This document shows, piece by piece, positions 3,339-19,912 of a DNA stretch of 64,000 nt. The translations under genes were made by a program, and so were the position numbers. The notes under the pieces are model-generated. The model was not told the DNA's origin and searched no databases. It was given only the letters and a program-made list of their open reading frames with translations. Numbering within the stretch: position 1 is the first letter of the stretch; each line of letters opens with the position of its first letter. The DNA comes from Myxococcales bacterium (GTDB lineage: Bacteria > Myxococcota_A > Polyangia > Polyangiales > Ga0077539), in contig JAAFIF010000006.1 of assembly GCA_013298625.1 (NCBI GenBank), forward strand, positions 124,001-188,000. Reading direction: 5' to 3'.

Positions 3339-4265
3339 TTGGGACTGACCGACTTCTTTCGAAAGTCACTCGCGCCGCCAGCGCCCAAAGAGGACATCTT
3401 CGACGACGAGTTTCAGCGCAAGCTCGACTACCTCGCGGTCATTTCTCGCAGGCTTTTCGCTGGTCGTTTGCGCGCCGAGCGCAGGACCAAGAAGACCGGC
3501 TCGGGCATCGAGTTCGCCGATCACCGGCAGTACAACGCCGGCGACGACCTGCGCTACGTCGACTGGAAGGTCTACGGCCGCAGCGAGCGCATGCTGCTCA
3601 AGTTGTACGAAGAAGAAGAGGACCTCTCGATCTACGTCCTGCTCGATTGCAGCGAGTCCATGGCGTACGGAGAGCCCTCGAAGTTCGATCACGCCCGCAA
3701 GCTCGCCGCGGCGATGGCGTACGTCGGCCTCGCCAATTTGGACCGCGTCGCGCTGCTCGCGGTGAGCACCAAGGTCGACAAGACCCTGCCGTCCACCCGC
3801 GGCAAGGGCCGCATCTTCAAGATCTTCGACTTTTTGCGGTCCGTGCGCCCGAAGGGCGAGACCGCGCTGGCCGACGCCGCGCGGCAGTTCACGACGCAGC
3901 AGAAGCGCCGCGGGATCGCGATCATCGTGACGGACCTGTACGACCCCGAGGGCTTCGAGCGCGGGATCAACGCGATTCGCTACCGCAAGTACGAGCCCAT
4001 GGTGATCCACGTGGTCGACCCGCGCGAGAGCGACCCGGGCGCGCGCGGCGACGTCACGCTCGTCGACGTCGAGAACGGCGAGAGCCGCGAGATCACCCTC
4101 ACCGACGGGATGGTCAAGGCGTACAAAGAAGAGCACGAGAAGTGGCGCAAAGAGATCGATGACTTCTGCAAGACCCGGCAGGTGCCGTACGTCGCAGCGG
4201 ACATCACCAAGCCGTTCGAAGAGCAGGTGCTCTACCTGTTTCGTCGGCTCGCCCTGGTGGAGTGA
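3339..4265 (+). CDS. DUF58 (VWA-like) protein
   Basis: This is a 308-residue DUF58 protein. The diagnostic block is present (AGDDLRYVDWKVYGRSERM) and is followed by a VWA-like strand with a metal-site-like DCSESM. No transmembrane segment is seen, so it is probably cytoplasmic or peripheral. The start is a TTG with ACGGAG eight bases upstream; no better start was found. It lies 37 bases after moxR and about 10 bases before the BatA-like gene. DUF58 proteins are typical partners of MoxR ATPases, but their biochemical function is not established. Confidence 0.92.
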   Translation: MGLTDFFRKSLAPPAPKEDIFDDEFQRKLDYLAVISRRLFAGRLRAERRTKKTGSGIEFADHRQYNAGDDLRYVDWKVYGRSERMLLKLYEEEEDLSIYVLLDCSESMAYGEPSKFDHARKLAAAMAYVGLANLDRVALLAVSTKVDKTLPSTRGKGRIFKIFDFLRSVRPKGETALADAARQFTTQQKRRGIAIIVTDLYDPEGFERGINAIRYRKYEPMVIHVVDPRESDPGARGDVTLVDVENGESREITLTDGMVKAYKEEHEKWRKEIDDFCKTRQVPYVAADITKPFEEQVLYLFRRLALVE

Positions 4266-4274
4266 GCGATCGCG

Positions 4275-6179
4275 ATGGAGTTCTTCGGTCTCACCGCAGG
4301 GCAACTGGGGACGCTGTACCTCGGCGTCGGCGCCGCGGTTGTCGTCCTGTACATCCTGAAGCTGCGACGACGACAGGTCCCTGTCCCGTTCGCCAAGCTG
4401 TGGAAGCGCGTGCTCATCGAGCGGCCTTCGAGCGCGCTCTTTCAGCACCTCAAGCGGATCCTCTCGCTCTTGTTGCAGCTCTTGCTGCTGGGCTTGATGG
4501 TCTTCGCCCTCGCGGACCCGCGGTTCAAAGGGCTCTCGCGCGCCGGGCGCAACCTGGTTGTTCTCGTGGACGGAAGCGCGAGCATGCAGGCCACGGACGT
4601 CCCTGGCGGACGCGCCACGGCGGCGCGCGAGGCCGTGCGCAGGATGATCCGCGAGATGGGCTCGGCCGATCGCATGCTGCTCGCGCAGATGGACGGCGAG
4701 GTCACCGCGCTCAGCCCGATGACCGACGACGTCGCGTCCCTCGAGAACGCGCTCAAGGACTACGCGCCGAGGGATACGGGGCTCGATTTTGCGGGCGCGA
4801 CCCGCTTCGCGCTCGACGCGATCCGCGGGCTCGAGCGCGCGGAGGTCGTGATCGTCGGCGACGGCGGGTACGGTCCCGCGCGGGACGGCGCGGGCGAGGT
4901 GCGGCTGCCCGAGGGCGTTCCGCTTCGGCACGTGGCTGTCGGGCGTTCGGGGCGCAACGTGGGGATCTCAGCGTTCAGCGCGAGGCGGTATCCGCTCGAT
5001 AAAACGCGGTACGAAGTGCTCGTCGAGGTGCGCAACTACAGCGACCGTCGCGAAGAGATCGAGCTGTCCCTCTACGCCGACGACGCGCCGCTCGAGGTCA
5101 CGCGCATGACGCTCGAGCCCAACGGCTCGCAGCAGCGCGTGCTGCGCGATCAGTCCGGCGCCAATCAGACCCTCGAGGCGCGCGTGCAGTTCGCGGATCG
5201 CACGCGGGACGACCTCCCTGCGGACGACCGCGCGTACGCCACGCTGCCTGCGCGCCGTCGCTCGCGCGTCCTGCTCGTCAGTGACGGAAACCTCTACGTC
5301 CAAGCGGCGCTCTTGCTCGACGAGTACATCGAGAGCGAAGAGGCCACCGTCGCCGACGCTCCGCAGAAGATGCGAGAGGGCCGCTACGACCTCGTGGTGA
5401 TGGACGGCGTCACCGTCCCCGCTCCGCCAGGAACGGCAGTGCTCTACCTGCACCCCTCCGGCACGGACTCTCCGCTCGAGATCGACGGCGCGACCCCCGA
5501 AGCGGCAGAGATTCGTCGGCCCTTCTTCGAGCGCATCGACGCGCGGCACCCGCTGATGCGCTTCATGTCCGACATCGAAGACACCAACGTCGGCGTCGCC
5601 ACGCGCTACCGATTGCGCGAGGGCGATCGCGCCGTGGCCGCGAGCGCGCAGGGCCCGTTGGTCGTGGTCGGGCAGCGCACGGGCGGACGCTTCGTGGCGG
5701 TGACGTTCGATCTGCGATCGAGCGACCTTCCGCTGCGCGTCTCGTGGCCGGTGCTGGTGATCAACACCATCGATTGGATCCACGGCGAAGACCCCGCGTA
5801 CCTGTCGAGCTTCAAGACGGGCGAGTCGTGGAGGGTTCCTGTCCCTGCTGGCGTAGATCGCGCCGAGGTCGAAGGGCCGGACGGCCGTCGCTCGAGCGCG
5901 CCGGTGATCGAGGGCCGCGCGGTGTTGCGAGGGATGCGCGCGGGCTTCTACCGCGTGCGCGCGGGCAACGAAGCGCAGATCGTCGCAGGAAACCTCACGG
6001 ATCCCGACGAGTCTCGGGTCGCGCCCCGCGCGTTCGCCGAGCTCAACGGGACGCGCGCCACCGCGCCCATCGCGGGACGCGTCGGCGTCCGACGTGAGCT
6101 GTGGCTCTACCTGCTGGCGGGCGCGCTCGCGATCGTCGTGCTCGAGTGGCTGAGCTACCACCGACGCGTCACCGTGTGA
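4275..6179 (+). CDS. BatA-like membrane protein with VWA domain
   Basis: This 634-residue membrane protein belongs to the BatA/aerotolerance type. The N-terminus (EFFGLTAGQLGTLYLGVG) and the following basic segment match the BatA N-terminal domain. A second hydrophobic stretch lies at about residues 55-80. The VWA domain then begins with VVLVDGSASM, which carries the DxSxS metal site. The middle and C-terminal parts are beta-rich, and a last hydrophobic helix (LWLYLLAGALAIVVLEWL) lies near the C-terminus. It is the fourth gene of the MoxR operon. It probably exposes its VWA domain to the cytoplasm or periplasm and is acted on by MoxR. Confidence 0.9.
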   Translation: MEFFGLTAGQLGTLYLGVGAAVVVLYILKLRRRQVPVPFAKLWKRVLIERPSSALFQHLKRILSLLLQLLLLGLMVFALADPRFKGLSRAGRNLVVLVDGSASMQATDVPGGRATAAREAVRRMIREMGSADRMLLAQMDGEVTALSPMTDDVASLENALKDYAPRDTGLDFAGATRFALDAIRGLERAEVVIVGDGGYGPARDGAGEVRLPEGVPLRHVAVGRSGRNVGISAFSARRYPLDKTRYEVLVEVRNYSDRREEIELSLYADDAPLEVTRMTLEPNGSQQRVLRDQSGANQTLEARVQFADRTRDDLPADDRAYATLPARRRSRVLLVSDGNLYVQAALLLDEYIESEEATVADAPQKMREGRYDLVVMDGVTVPAPPGTAVLYLHPSGTDSPLEIDGATPEAAEIRRPFFERIDARHPLMRFMSDIEDTNVGVATRYRLREGDRAVAASAQGPLVVVGQRTGGRFVAVTFDLRSSDLPLRVSWPVLVINTIDWIHGEDPAYLSSFKTGESWRVPVPAGVDRAEVEGPDGRRSSAPVIEGRAVLRGMRAGFYRVRAGNEAQIVAGNLTDPDESRVAPRAFAELNGTRATAPIAGRVGVRRELWLYLLAGALAIVVLEWLSYHRRVTV

Positions 6180-18098: not shown

Positions 18099-18171
18099 TG
18101 CCGTCGTCTGGGCTTGCACCAGATAGGTCGCCCTTGGCGAGAGCGCTGCTCGAGTCTTCGCACTCGACGGC
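18099..18171 (-). ncRNA. tRNA-like cloverleaf element, copy 1
   Basis: On the minus strand this 73-nt sequence folds as a full tRNA cloverleaf. The acceptor stem is perfect, GCCGTCG with CGACGGC. A 3-bp D stem (TGC/GCA) closes a 10-nt loop, and the anticodon stem CGCTC/GGGCG closes TCGCCAA (positions 34-36 GCC). The variable loop is ACCTA, and the T stem TCTGG/CCAGA closes TGCAAGC. The T-loop keeps T54, C56, A58 and the G53-C61 pair, but position 55 is G. Position 8 is A and position 33 is C, so it is not a canonical tRNA. The base after the stem is A, followed by CC then T (not CCA). It lies just after the stop of the unknown gene at 18185. Confidence 0.6.
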
Positions 18172-18184
18172 GGGCGAGAGTCTC

Positions 18185-19129
18185 TCACACTCGAACGGGA
18201 CGCTGCGACGGCGGAAGCTGCGTCGAGAGCGCCACCGCCGACGGGTGCTCGACGCAGAGGTGAACCCCTCGCGCCAGCAGCGCGAGCCACGGCTCGAACG
18301 GGTCTGCGATCTGGCTTCGCGCGGGCATCGTGAACGACCAGGTGTTTCGCGGGCTGGACACGACGGTGGGCGCGTCGGGCGCTGTCTCGCGAAGCGCGCG
18401 AAGCATGCGGTGCGCGGCGTACGCGCGCTGCACGACGCTGATCGCTTGACGGTCGAAGCCGCGCTGGACGAGCTTCTCCTCGAGGGTGACCCCGCTCCAG
18501 TTCGACGGCGGTCCGAGCTGGTCCGAGAGCGCCTCGCGCAGCGGCTCGGAGAACCGCGGCAGGTCCGCGAGCAGCACGTCGAACGCTCGCCAGTAGTAGC
18601 TCGCGCCGCGCAGGGCGAACTCGAGCGCCGCGCTCGTCGCGGGCCGTCGCCTCGCGCGCGCGACCCACACCGTCGTGCTCGGCGGCGCGATCTGCGCGAT
18701 CTGCGCGCTCGGTGGCGCGCTCGTCATCCCCGCGCTGCGCACGACGAACTCGCGTGCGAGCGCCTCTGCCTCGATGAGCGTGGGCCCCATCGCCGCGAGC
18801 ATCGCCGCCCAGCTGCGGTCGATCGGCGCGGGCGCGGCGCGCACTTGAAAACCTGTGCCGATAGTGACGGGCTTGACCAGCGACGGATCCACCCACTCGA
18901 GCGCGCGTTTTCTGCGATAGAACTGCCGCGGAAGCGCGAACCACCGCGAGGCGTCGCTCACCCACTCTTGCGGGACGTACCCGTTGGCCGAGAGCGCCTC
19001 CCACGCGCTGACCCCGTCGATGTGCCGGTTGGCGATGCGCGCGCACTCGGCCCACCGCTCGAGCTTCTGCGGAAGCATCGCCGCGAGGTACGTTGAGATG
19101 TCTTCGACGATCGCGTCCTGGGTGCTCAT
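18185..19129 (-). CDS. Unknown protein of a VPxxW paralogue family
   Basis: This is a 314-residue protein whose ATG overlaps the stop of the AlkB-like gene by four bases (ATGA), so the two are translationally coupled. The block VSAWEALSANGYVPQEWVSD, an R-x-F, and later PPSTTVWVARA correspond in order to the protein at 11773-12462. The C-terminal half (from about residue 190) is helix-rich and has no recognised domain. There is no signal peptide or membrane helix. The tRNA-like copy 1 starts about 13 bases after its stop. Function unknown. Confidence 0.8.
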   Translation of the reverse strand: MSTQDAIVEDISTYLAAMLPQKLERWAECARIANRHIDGVSAWEALSANGYVPQEWVSDASRWFALPRQFYRRKRALEWVDPSLVKPVTIGTGFQVRAAPAPIDRSWAAMLAAMGPTLIEAEALAREFVVRSAGMTSAPPSAQIAQIAPPSTTVWVARARRRPATSAALEFALRGASYYWRAFDVLLADLPRFSEPLREALSDQLGPPSNWSGVTLEEKLVQRGFDRQAISVVQRAYAAHRMLRALRETAPDAPTVVSSPRNTWSFTMPARSQIADPFEPWLALLARGVHLCVEHPSAVALSTQLPPSQRPVRV

Positions 19130-19692
19130 CGCTCGCTCTCGATCCTCACTGTACGAAAGGTGACCGAGACTCGCCTGCCGCGCGCGACGCGGACGCCGTC
19201 GATCACGTCGCTCTTGCGGGCGGCGATCCCGTGCTTCCACGCGAGGCGCGCCTCGCCGCTGAGCGCGAGCAACGAGCGCGGCGCGAGCGTGATCGCGCGC
19301 GGGGCGGCGCCTTCGCGTCGCAGGTCCATCGCGCACCCCGAGCCGAGCGAGAGCGAGAGCACCACGGGCCCGAAGCACGGGACGCAGTCGATGTGCGCCG
19401 CGATCCCTTGGCCGGGCTCGTATTCGTTGACGATCACCTGCTCGGGGCGCGCGCTGAGGCCCTCGCGCTCGACGCGGTCGGCGAGCGCCTCGGCCCACGG
19501 CGGCAGCGGCCCGAGCCGCATCGACGCGTCGATCGAGCGCGCTTTGTAGTCGTAGCGCCAGCCGTAGTGCTGCACGCGTCGAGAGAGGTCCGCGCGCCAC
19601 GCTTCGGCGTCGATCGCGCAGAGCAGCGCGGCCGCTTCGTCCGCAGAAATCCAGGCGTCGATCAGCCGAAGTCCGTCGATCTCGTCGTGCAT
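19126..19692 (-). CDS. AlkB-like 2OG-Fe(II) oxygenase, ALKBH8-like
   Basis: This 188-residue oxygenase has the AlkB fold. The iron ligands are His100 and Asp102 (AAHIDCVP) and His154 (AWKHGI); Arg174 and Arg180 in RRVSVTFR would bind 2-oxoglutarate. The stretches NEYEPGQGIAAHID, VVLSLSLGSG and PRSLLALSGEARLAWKHGI closely follow the oxygenase domain of animal ALKBH8, which hydroxylates the modified wobble uridine of tRNA. Bacterial homologues are common and mostly uncharacterised, so a tRNA substrate is an inference. The start at 19692 was preferred to an upstream in-frame start because it gives the family length. It lies between tRNA-like copies 3 and 1 and is coupled to the following unknown gene. 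Confidence 0.88.
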   Translation of the reverse strand: MHDEIDGLRLIDAWISADEAAALLCAIDAEAWRADLSRRVQHYGWRYDYKARSIDASMRLGPLPPWAEALADRVEREGLSARPEQVIVNEYEPGQGIAAHIDCVPCFGPVVLSLSLGSGCAMDLRREGAAPRAITLAPRSLLALSGEARLAWKHGIAARKSDVIDGVRVARGRRVSVTFRTVRIESER

Positions 19693-19744
19693 CAAAGGGC
19701 CCCTGGCAGTGCGCATCGGCCTCGCGATGCACAAGTGGAGCAGG

Positions 19745-19819
19745 CGCCGCCGCCGCAGACTTGCACCGCGGTAGATCGCGCTTTGGAGGCGCGAGGCTCG
19801 ACTCTTCACCCTCGGCGGC
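19745..19819 (-). ncRNA. tRNA-like cloverleaf element, copy 3
   Basis: On the minus strand this 75-nt sequence forms a cloverleaf. The acceptor stem GCCGCCG/CGGCGGC is perfect. A weak D stem (GGT/GCC) closes GAAGAGTCGA, and the anticodon stem CGCGC/GCGCG is perfect and closes CTCCAAA. That loop is identical to the tRNA-Trp loop: T33 is present and positions 34-36 are CCA. The T arm has one extra pair, CCGCGG/CTGCGG, and loop TGCAAGT. The D-loop is shared with copy 2. After the acceptor stem come G, CC and T, so the 3' end lacks an encoded CCA. It lies between copy 2 and the AlkB-like gene. Confidence 0.6.
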
Positions 19820-19839
19820 GACGGCGATGGTACTCGAAA

Positions 19840-19912
19840 CGCCGCGGTCTGGACTCGCACCAGATAGGACGCGCGTGTTCAGCGCGCTGCTCGACTCTTC
19901 GCACTCGGCGGC
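19840..19912 (-). ncRNA. tRNA-like cloverleaf element, copy 2
   Basis: On the minus strand this 73-nt sequence has acceptor GCCGCCG/CCGCGGC with one C-C mismatch at pair 6. D stem TGC/GCA closes GAAGAGTCGA, and a perfect anticodon stem CGCGC/GCGCG closes TGAACAC. The variable loop is TCCTA, and T stem TCTGG/CCAGA closes TGCGAGT. T54, C56, A58 and the G53-C61 pair are kept. It begins 8 bases after the TPR gene stop (19921) and lies about 20 bases before copy 3. Confidence 0.55.

Follow-up and report, generated by a model that had tools for sequence, protein, structure and literature searches.

A family of tRNA-like cloverleafs in an alkB cassette of one bacterial genus and its relatives in viral tRNA arrays

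Three cloverleafs around an AlkB-type gene

We analyzed a 64,000-nucleotide (nt) stretch of a Myxococcales genome (assembly GCA_013298625.1, contig JAAFIF010000006.1, positions 124,001 to 188,000; hereafter the window), in which three transfer RNA (tRNA)-like elements lie on the minus strand around two genes. The genes, on the same strand, encode an AlkB-type 2-oxoglutarate-Fe(II) oxygenase of 188 amino acids (aa) (19126..19692; PF13532, E 6.7e-22; closest solved structure ALKBH8, 3thp, E 7.3e-28) and an orphan protein of 314 aa, here called X (18185..19129), which matched no known family or fold. Element c1 (18100..18171, minus strand) carries the triplet GCC at the anticodon position, together with C33, G55, A8 and A48, and starts 13 nt past the stop codon of X. 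Element c2 (19746..19819, minus strand; triplet CCA, U33, G55) lies 53 nt upstream of the AlkB start, and c3 (19841..19912, minus strand; triplet AAC, G33, G55, and a C6-C67 mismatch) starts 8 nt past the stop codon of a TPR gene. Excluding the discriminator base, their sizes are 72, 74 and 72 nt.

Each element folds into a cloverleaf with stems of 7 (acceptor), 3 (D), 5 (anticodon) and 5 (T) base pairs (bp), with anticodon and T loops of 7 nt and a variable loop of 5 nt; only the T stem of c2 is longer, with 6 bp. A first-pass annotation of this DNA had described three minus-strand cloverleafs here, and they were found again, with one discriminator base each. That description needs correcting for the acceptor mismatch of c3 and for the T stem of c2, which has 6 pairs. 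The changes that it had singled out were also recovered, namely the acceptor covariation between c1 and c2 (T5-A68 versus C5-G68), the change in the T stem between copies and the wobble in the anticodon stem of c1 (T30-G40), and so were A8 and G55. Across the three elements, 98.4% of 61 cells were paired and both sides were altered in 5 of 21 pairs, each value being reached by 3 of 500 shuffles; the number of pair types was matched by 58 of 500. A cloverleaf scan of the window (T54, A58, G53-C61, A14, at most one mismatch, 5-bp T stem) returned c3 and c1, and none was returned from 30 dinucleotide-preserving Markov shuffles. Element c2 was missed because the scan excluded its 6-bp T stem.

A consensus search found no promoters, and terminators occurred at chance level. 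When c3 was compared with its own genome, 41 matches were obtained at E up to 10; those outside the window copies were short, and one on C106 looked coding by eye. A pattern combining D-loop and T-arm matched this genome twice, both times on window copies, and its backward control matched three times, so that this search proves nothing.

A cloverleaf family in one genus

A covariance model built on c1-c3 (R1) recovered these elements at 90-96 bits in their own genome (G000), where the next match reached 26.1 bits. The first-pass annotation had proposed such a search of related genomes, and across 96 of them five further copies were found, all in two other members of the genus: G1a and G1b (G001:C9), G1c (G001:C20), and G2a and G2b (G002:C112). 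The genus sample comprised three genomes, all of which carry the family. R1 also gave one match in each of six other genomes (35.5-47.5 bits), lying within tRNA arrays (G020, G034), near two tRNAs (G055), on tRNA-Met (G063, G050) or on no recognised tRNA (G091). A second model built on all eight copies (R2) was run over 183 genomes of the order; it scored the eight copies at 84-96 bits and 19 other places at 49.6 bits or less. This search used strict filters and omitted the R1 matches of G020, G034 and G055, so that absence holds for strong matches only. ARAGORN was applied to 16 of the 19 places outside the genus (33-50 bits; all except L122, L123 and L126) and called 14 of them tRNAs, ten being tRNA-Met; L118 and L050 were not called as tRNAs. 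Elements c1-c3 belong to a cloverleaf family found in one genus only.

Conservation of the fold was evident across the genus. Among the eight copies, 98.8% of 161 cells were paired and 7 of 21 pairs had changed on both sides; pair 10-25, for example, occurs as GC, UA, AU and CG. Paired percentage, covariation score and number of doubly changed cells were each reached by none of 500 shuffles, the number of doubly changed pairs by 12 and the number of pair types by 156. Where drift without compensation would have spoken against a selected structure, compensation was found, and the selection for structure proposed in the first pass finds support in all four stems, each of which has pairs altered on both sides among copies that are 79-86% identical across genomes. 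Since compensating changes preserve the cloverleaf in full, something likely recognises a tRNA shape.

The layout is that of canonical tRNAs (RF00005), with stems of 7, 3 or 4, 5 and 5 bp and 7-nt anticodon and T loops, apart from the T stem of c2. The canonical core and elbow (U8, a pyrimidine at 48, GG at 18-19, U55) are lacking: A8 and A48 occur in 8/8 copies, GG is absent from the D-loop in 8/8, and G55 is present in 6/8, with T55 in G2b and G1c. The D-loop/T-loop elbow is not consistent between copies; a re-pairing of position 55 with the CG of the D-loop was considered and dropped, because this CG also occurs where position 55 is T. U33 is kept in three of the eight copies, the remaining five having C33 or G33, the discriminator base varies, and none of the copies encodes CCA. 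Each of the three genomes carries one GCC and one CCA copy, and the Gly-type triplet is found in three of the eight copies. With U33 lost in five copies, and U8 and the pyrimidine at 48 in every one, it is unlikely that decoding is what is kept.

The view that these are not normal tRNAs agrees with the results of standard searches. ARAGORN detected no tRNA in the window, nor at or around the copies in G001 and G002, and the copies therefore lack a tRNA-array context. With Rfam, nothing reached gathering level in the window, and between 17900 and 20100 there was no tRNA match even at E up to 10. Over the whole of the elements' own genome, RF00005 gave 61 matches at E up to 10, 57 of them above the cut-off; c1-c3 were not among these, and an ordinary tRNA-Trp(CCA) is present. 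Bacterial Y RNA of the YrlA type likewise mimics tRNA in bacteria. It differs in its permuted T-arm/D-arm module, the window elements being full cloverleafs, and a search for YrlA (RF02553) between 17900 and 20100 gave nothing at E up to 10.

Of the eight copies, all but one stand next to the alkB-X pair, always on the alkB coding strand. The order is c3, c2, alkB, X, c1 in the window; G1a, G1b, alkB, X in G001; and G2a, alkB, X, G2b in G002. From the end of the preceding element to the AlkB start there are 53 nt in the window and 41 nt in G001 and G002. The X stop codon and a leader (GAGACTCTCGCCC; 18172..18187, minus strand) stand ahead of c1, and nearly the same sequence stands ahead of G2b; given these near-identical leaders (GTGAGAGACTCTCGCCC and GTGAGAGACTCTCACC), c1 and G2b likely occupy the same position. 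R1 found no element after X in G001. In this genome, a sequence of about 90-100 nt is repeated in tandem after X (L054, 11683-11884), and the G002 stretch contains it once more.

The surroundings of the cassette differ between genomes. Orthologues of the TPR gene that precedes it in the window are found in G001 and G002 with neither AlkB, X nor an element in the adjoining 1.5 kb. An Oxidored_FMN gene adjoins the cassette in G001 and G002, and its orthologue in the genome of the window has no cassette within its 1.5-kb flanks. One cassette is thus found at two chromosomal addresses, each of which is empty where the other is used.

Relatives in viral tRNA arrays

Viral contigs were searched with a pattern for D-loop and T-arm (GAAGNNGTCGAG, 24-34 nt, GGTGCRAGTCC), which matched 15 contig stretches, two of them from one contig; a stricter pattern matched none. 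ARAGORN detected tRNAs in 13 of the 15, mostly in large arrays. The best R2 scores (71.9-73.3 bits) were obtained for cloverleafs with the triplet TTC (Glu by the code) in L106, L100 and L104. They sit among tRNAs, were missed by ARAGORN and encode GCCA (seen in L106 and L100); the TTC gene is present in five stretches, and L106 belongs to a tailed phage, by its terminase. In a tree of 227 cloverleafs, which is midpoint-rooted, based on 77 columns and hence only a guide, the eight copies and two viral TTC cloverleafs formed a ten-leaf clade (support 0.92). For six copies, mean identity was higher to G55 than to T55 cloverleafs (by 0.05-0.08).

The viral genes share a particular core with the genus copies. 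Among 18 G55 array cloverleafs with a D-loop of the [GA]AAG type (15 from viral contigs and three from genome records; the motif test admitted one CAAG loop), A8 was found in 17 and A48 in the same 17, the search pattern having included the D-loop and G55, not A8 or A48. G55 cloverleafs with other D-loops (n = 61) had A8 in 10 cases and A48 in 3, and T55 cloverleafs (n = 125) in 19 and 12, respectively. We define the alternative-core array class by A8 and A48 with a [GA]AAG...CGA D-loop, a combination present in 8/8 genus copies; the 3-bp D stem is shared as well. G55, usual in these viral genes, occurs in 6/8 genus copies, with T55 in G2b and G1c. The variable loop reads TCCTA in the viral TTC genes and NCCTA in six genus copies. 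The viral genes differ in standing among many tRNAs and in encoding a CCA end in 11 of the 18 of G55 type, the genus copies doing neither. By the similarities listed here, the closest relatives found are alternative-core tRNA-type genes of viral tRNA arrays. The first pass had left the choice between a new tRNA-like family and diverged tRNA copies, and the elements look like both, being a family found in one genus only whose nearest kin, among those found, are tRNA-type genes of viral arrays.

Phage records gave no match to c3. Among those listed, relatives of the His-type gene are annotated as tRNA-His in Gordonia and Streptomyces phages. That of Gordonia phage Sixama has the A8/A48 core, yet it differs from the genus copies in keeping GG in the D-loop and T55, and the His-type relative of HaugeAnator lacks the [GA]AAG...CGA D-loop. 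A separate match of about 95 nt (79% identity) connects L106 (about 4223-4318) with Caulobacter phages such as CcrRogue (H3); no annotated feature lies beneath it in the records listed, and by eye it resembles an unannotated tRNA-Ser.

The elbow was surveyed in 225 distinct cloverleafs from 20 loci (15 viral, five from genome records). T55 with GG in the D-loop was found in 133, G55 without GG in 79, G55 with GG in 7, T55 without GG in 4 and C55 with GG in 2. Without the cloverleafs picked by the pattern, these counts became 133, 67, 6, 4 and 2 (Fisher p 1.9e-42, relatedness ignored). Four loci of three contigs contributed 62 of the 79 G55 cloverleafs without GG, which made up 18/18 in L100, 4/4 in L102 (the same contig), 13/17 in L106 and 27/33 in L108; L104 duplicates L100/L102 sequences and was merged with them. 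L100, L102, L104, L106 and L108 come from IMG/VR contigs 3300029286_000196, 3300028559_002697, 3300047678_000846 and 3300045391_005805. By eye, D-loops in these loci mostly have AG in place of the expected GG. AG together with G55 suggests a swap of the 18-55 pair, which is likely a feature across viral tRNA sets. tRNAs with G55 would escape the U55-modifying enzyme and anything that reads the usual elbow. Searches of open-licence PubMed Central (PMC) literature gave no description that we recognised of the class with G55 and no GG, of the elbow swap or of a cassette of AlkB and tRNA-like elements.

AlkB, X and the possible role of the elements

Among solved structures, the window AlkB is closest to the AlkB domain of ALKBH8 (3thp, 100.9 bits), the runner-up being a DNA N6-methyladenine demethylase (53 bits); E. 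coli AlkB is absent from the ten best structures listed. The alignment with ALKBH8 includes the stretch that holds the AHID and HGI motifs. The RRM and methyltransferase domains of ALKBH8 are lacking, PF13532 being the only Pfam domain of the 188-aa protein; other bacterial ALKBH8-type proteins are known and likewise lack these two parts (PMC4051686). The AlkB has many relatives (2944 at E up to 0.001 in a protein database search). Within the order it was found in 4 of 183 genomes at E up to 1e-15, namely the three of the genus and G149 (45% identity), and in a sample of 377 genomes drawn from the phylum it was found in five at E up to 1e-25.

X is much rarer. It was detected in 3 of the 183 genomes of the order at E up to 1e-6, all of the genus, and its copies in G001 and G002 are 35-38% identical. 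A search of 5.8 billion proteins gave at least five, including X itself, with candidates scored in part and the G001 and G002 copies unlisted. Among 84,980 species genomes, two peptide patterns found X only in G001 and G002, in a set that may leave out records near the window's own. X has weak paralogues elsewhere in its own genome; a distant one (L129, C42:18728-19645) has no element nearby. Homologues of X and AlkB in the protein database (P0003 with P0006, P0005 with P0013) lie on contigs of matching size (39440 and 4278), where they probably represent the same cassette. No transferase family matched X or AlkB, the two proteins examined, and neither protein had a match in phage records. AlkB, X and their neighbours were likewise without a match at 1e-3 in the 15 viral loci.

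We tentatively favour the reading that the elements form a cloverleaf family related to the virus type, sit in an alkB-X cassette, and likely give rise to RNAs that do not decode and would be modified by the oxygenase. With a relative of a tRNA-modifying enzyme next door, a kept tRNA shape and decoding unlikely, a non-decoding tRNA-shaped RNA modified by AlkB would be the simplest account. Compensated conservation of the fold, viral relatives, and a cassette with its two addresses are what we observe; we infer each step beyond a cloverleaf family in a cassette. The elements would descend from virus-type tRNAs and would be co-transcribed with the genes as tRNA-like(s)-alkB-X-tRNA-like; RNase P and RNase Z would cut the RNAs out of the transcript, and the oxygenase would act on one of their bases, perhaps with X as partner. 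A more far-reaching version, which we regard as unlikely, is that the genus has domesticated tRNAs of the virus type whose tertiary core is rewired: they would not decode but would be RNA partners dedicated to an ALKBH8-type oxygenase and an orphan protein, and the whole would be a mobile cassette for RNA modification based on tRNA mimics. The substrate of bacterial ALKBH8-type enzymes is unsettled, and the cassette supplies a concrete candidate to test; if the far-reaching version is true, this would be the first natural RNA partner for a bacterial ALKBH8. The elements also point to a class of array tRNAs whose core differs from the usual one (A8, A48), and to viral contigs where most of the cloverleafs carry G55 in place of U55 and no GG in the D-loop.

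Several observations weigh against the favoured reading. G1c is solitary, with neither AlkB nor X in the surrounding 19.9 kb. At AlkB loci outside the genus (G149, G395, G477), neither element nor tRNA was seen in any of the three stretches read, so that the association is confined to the genus and lacks phylogenetic independence; the three cassette genomes themselves form one genus, and their co-occurrence does not count as independent either. The mean identity of G2b and G1c is 0.47 to G55 cloverleafs and nearly the same to T55 cloverleafs (0.46 and 0.45, respectively). Folding energy z-scores for the three window copies are unconvincing (-1.96, -1.38 and -0.09) and were set aside as evidence for the fold, and the minimum-energy fold of c1 differs from the cloverleaf. 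X had no Pfam, PADLOC or PHROGs match, and nothing in the PDB matched its predicted structure (predicted local distance difference test 75.9, predicted template modelling score 0.80) at E up to 0.001. Excerpts of PMC4051686 report that tRNA-Gly(UCC) was unaltered in an Agrobacterium ALKBH8 knockout and that the bacterial ALKBH8s assayed repair DNA to varying degree; according to the same excerpts, the authors still consider RNA a possible substrate. Most of the facts would also be explained by a role in cis, the main rival, in which the cloverleafs would be sites for RNase P/RNase Z processing, or for binding, within the leader and trailer of the alkB-X transcript and the released RNA would have no role itself. 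The short distance of 41-53 nt between an element and the AlkB start, on the coding strand in all three genomes, and the elements after X in G000 and G002 fit this. The solitary G1c has no such cistron, however, and the presence in every genome of one GCC copy and one CCA copy, differently placed, suggests that loop identity matters; we consider a role in cis unlikely.

The viral affinity, the varying copy number and address, and an elbow no longer consistent among copies would equally be expected if a viral tRNA array had been imported and were now decaying, its remains having no selected function and AlkB-X being carried along as cargo. Pairs that changed on both sides, found in each of the four stems, make such decay quite unlikely. 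We find it more improbable still that the elements are working tRNAs of an unusual kind (Gly GCC, Trp CCA, Asp GTC) adding to those of the host: GCC and CCA triplets recur in 3/3 genomes and the Sixama relative is annotated as a tRNA in an isolated phage, but five of the eight copies have C33 or G33, the genome already has its tRNA-Trp(CCA), the discriminator is not conserved and CCA is not encoded. Non-proteinogenic tRNA-Gly of Staphylococcus also has GG 18-19 replaced, as excerpts of PMC4052509 describe, and shares the Gly-type triplet of three genus copies; the genus family differs from it in its other triplets, its alternative core and the lack of a transferase match for X or AlkB. It is very improbable that the elements delimit a mobile unit and serve in its recombination, in the way that integrases use tRNA genes. 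The unit does occupy two addresses, and in G000 and G002 it has elements on either side, but it consists of alkB and X only, with no integrase gene, R1 found no element past X in its G001 version, and a DNA site does not need compensated stems. Least credible of all is a Twister-sister-like ribozyme (RF02681) hidden in the GCC/GTC-type copies. Rfam matches on c1 (22.5 bits) and on G1a-G1b (29 bits) suggested it and stay below the gathering score of 34; the consensus 3' segment GGCGCUCAU reads GCCGCUGAG in the match, and the T-loop of G2a is TGAGAGT.

Two further tRNA loci are of note. A tRNA array in the window's own genome lies beside a TROVE/Ro60 gene (PF05731) (L091, 7400-12700; C22, about 177.4-182.7 kb). 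Two units of this array, at first taken for permuted tRNA genes, match YrlA at 53.4 and 44.7 bits (gathering score 69) and are probably Y-RNA-like. In the tRNA array of G020:C469 (L045/L058), at least three tRNAs have T-loop inserts of about 70 nt that, by eye, share one common sequence (GTGAACTAGGGTCCT...).

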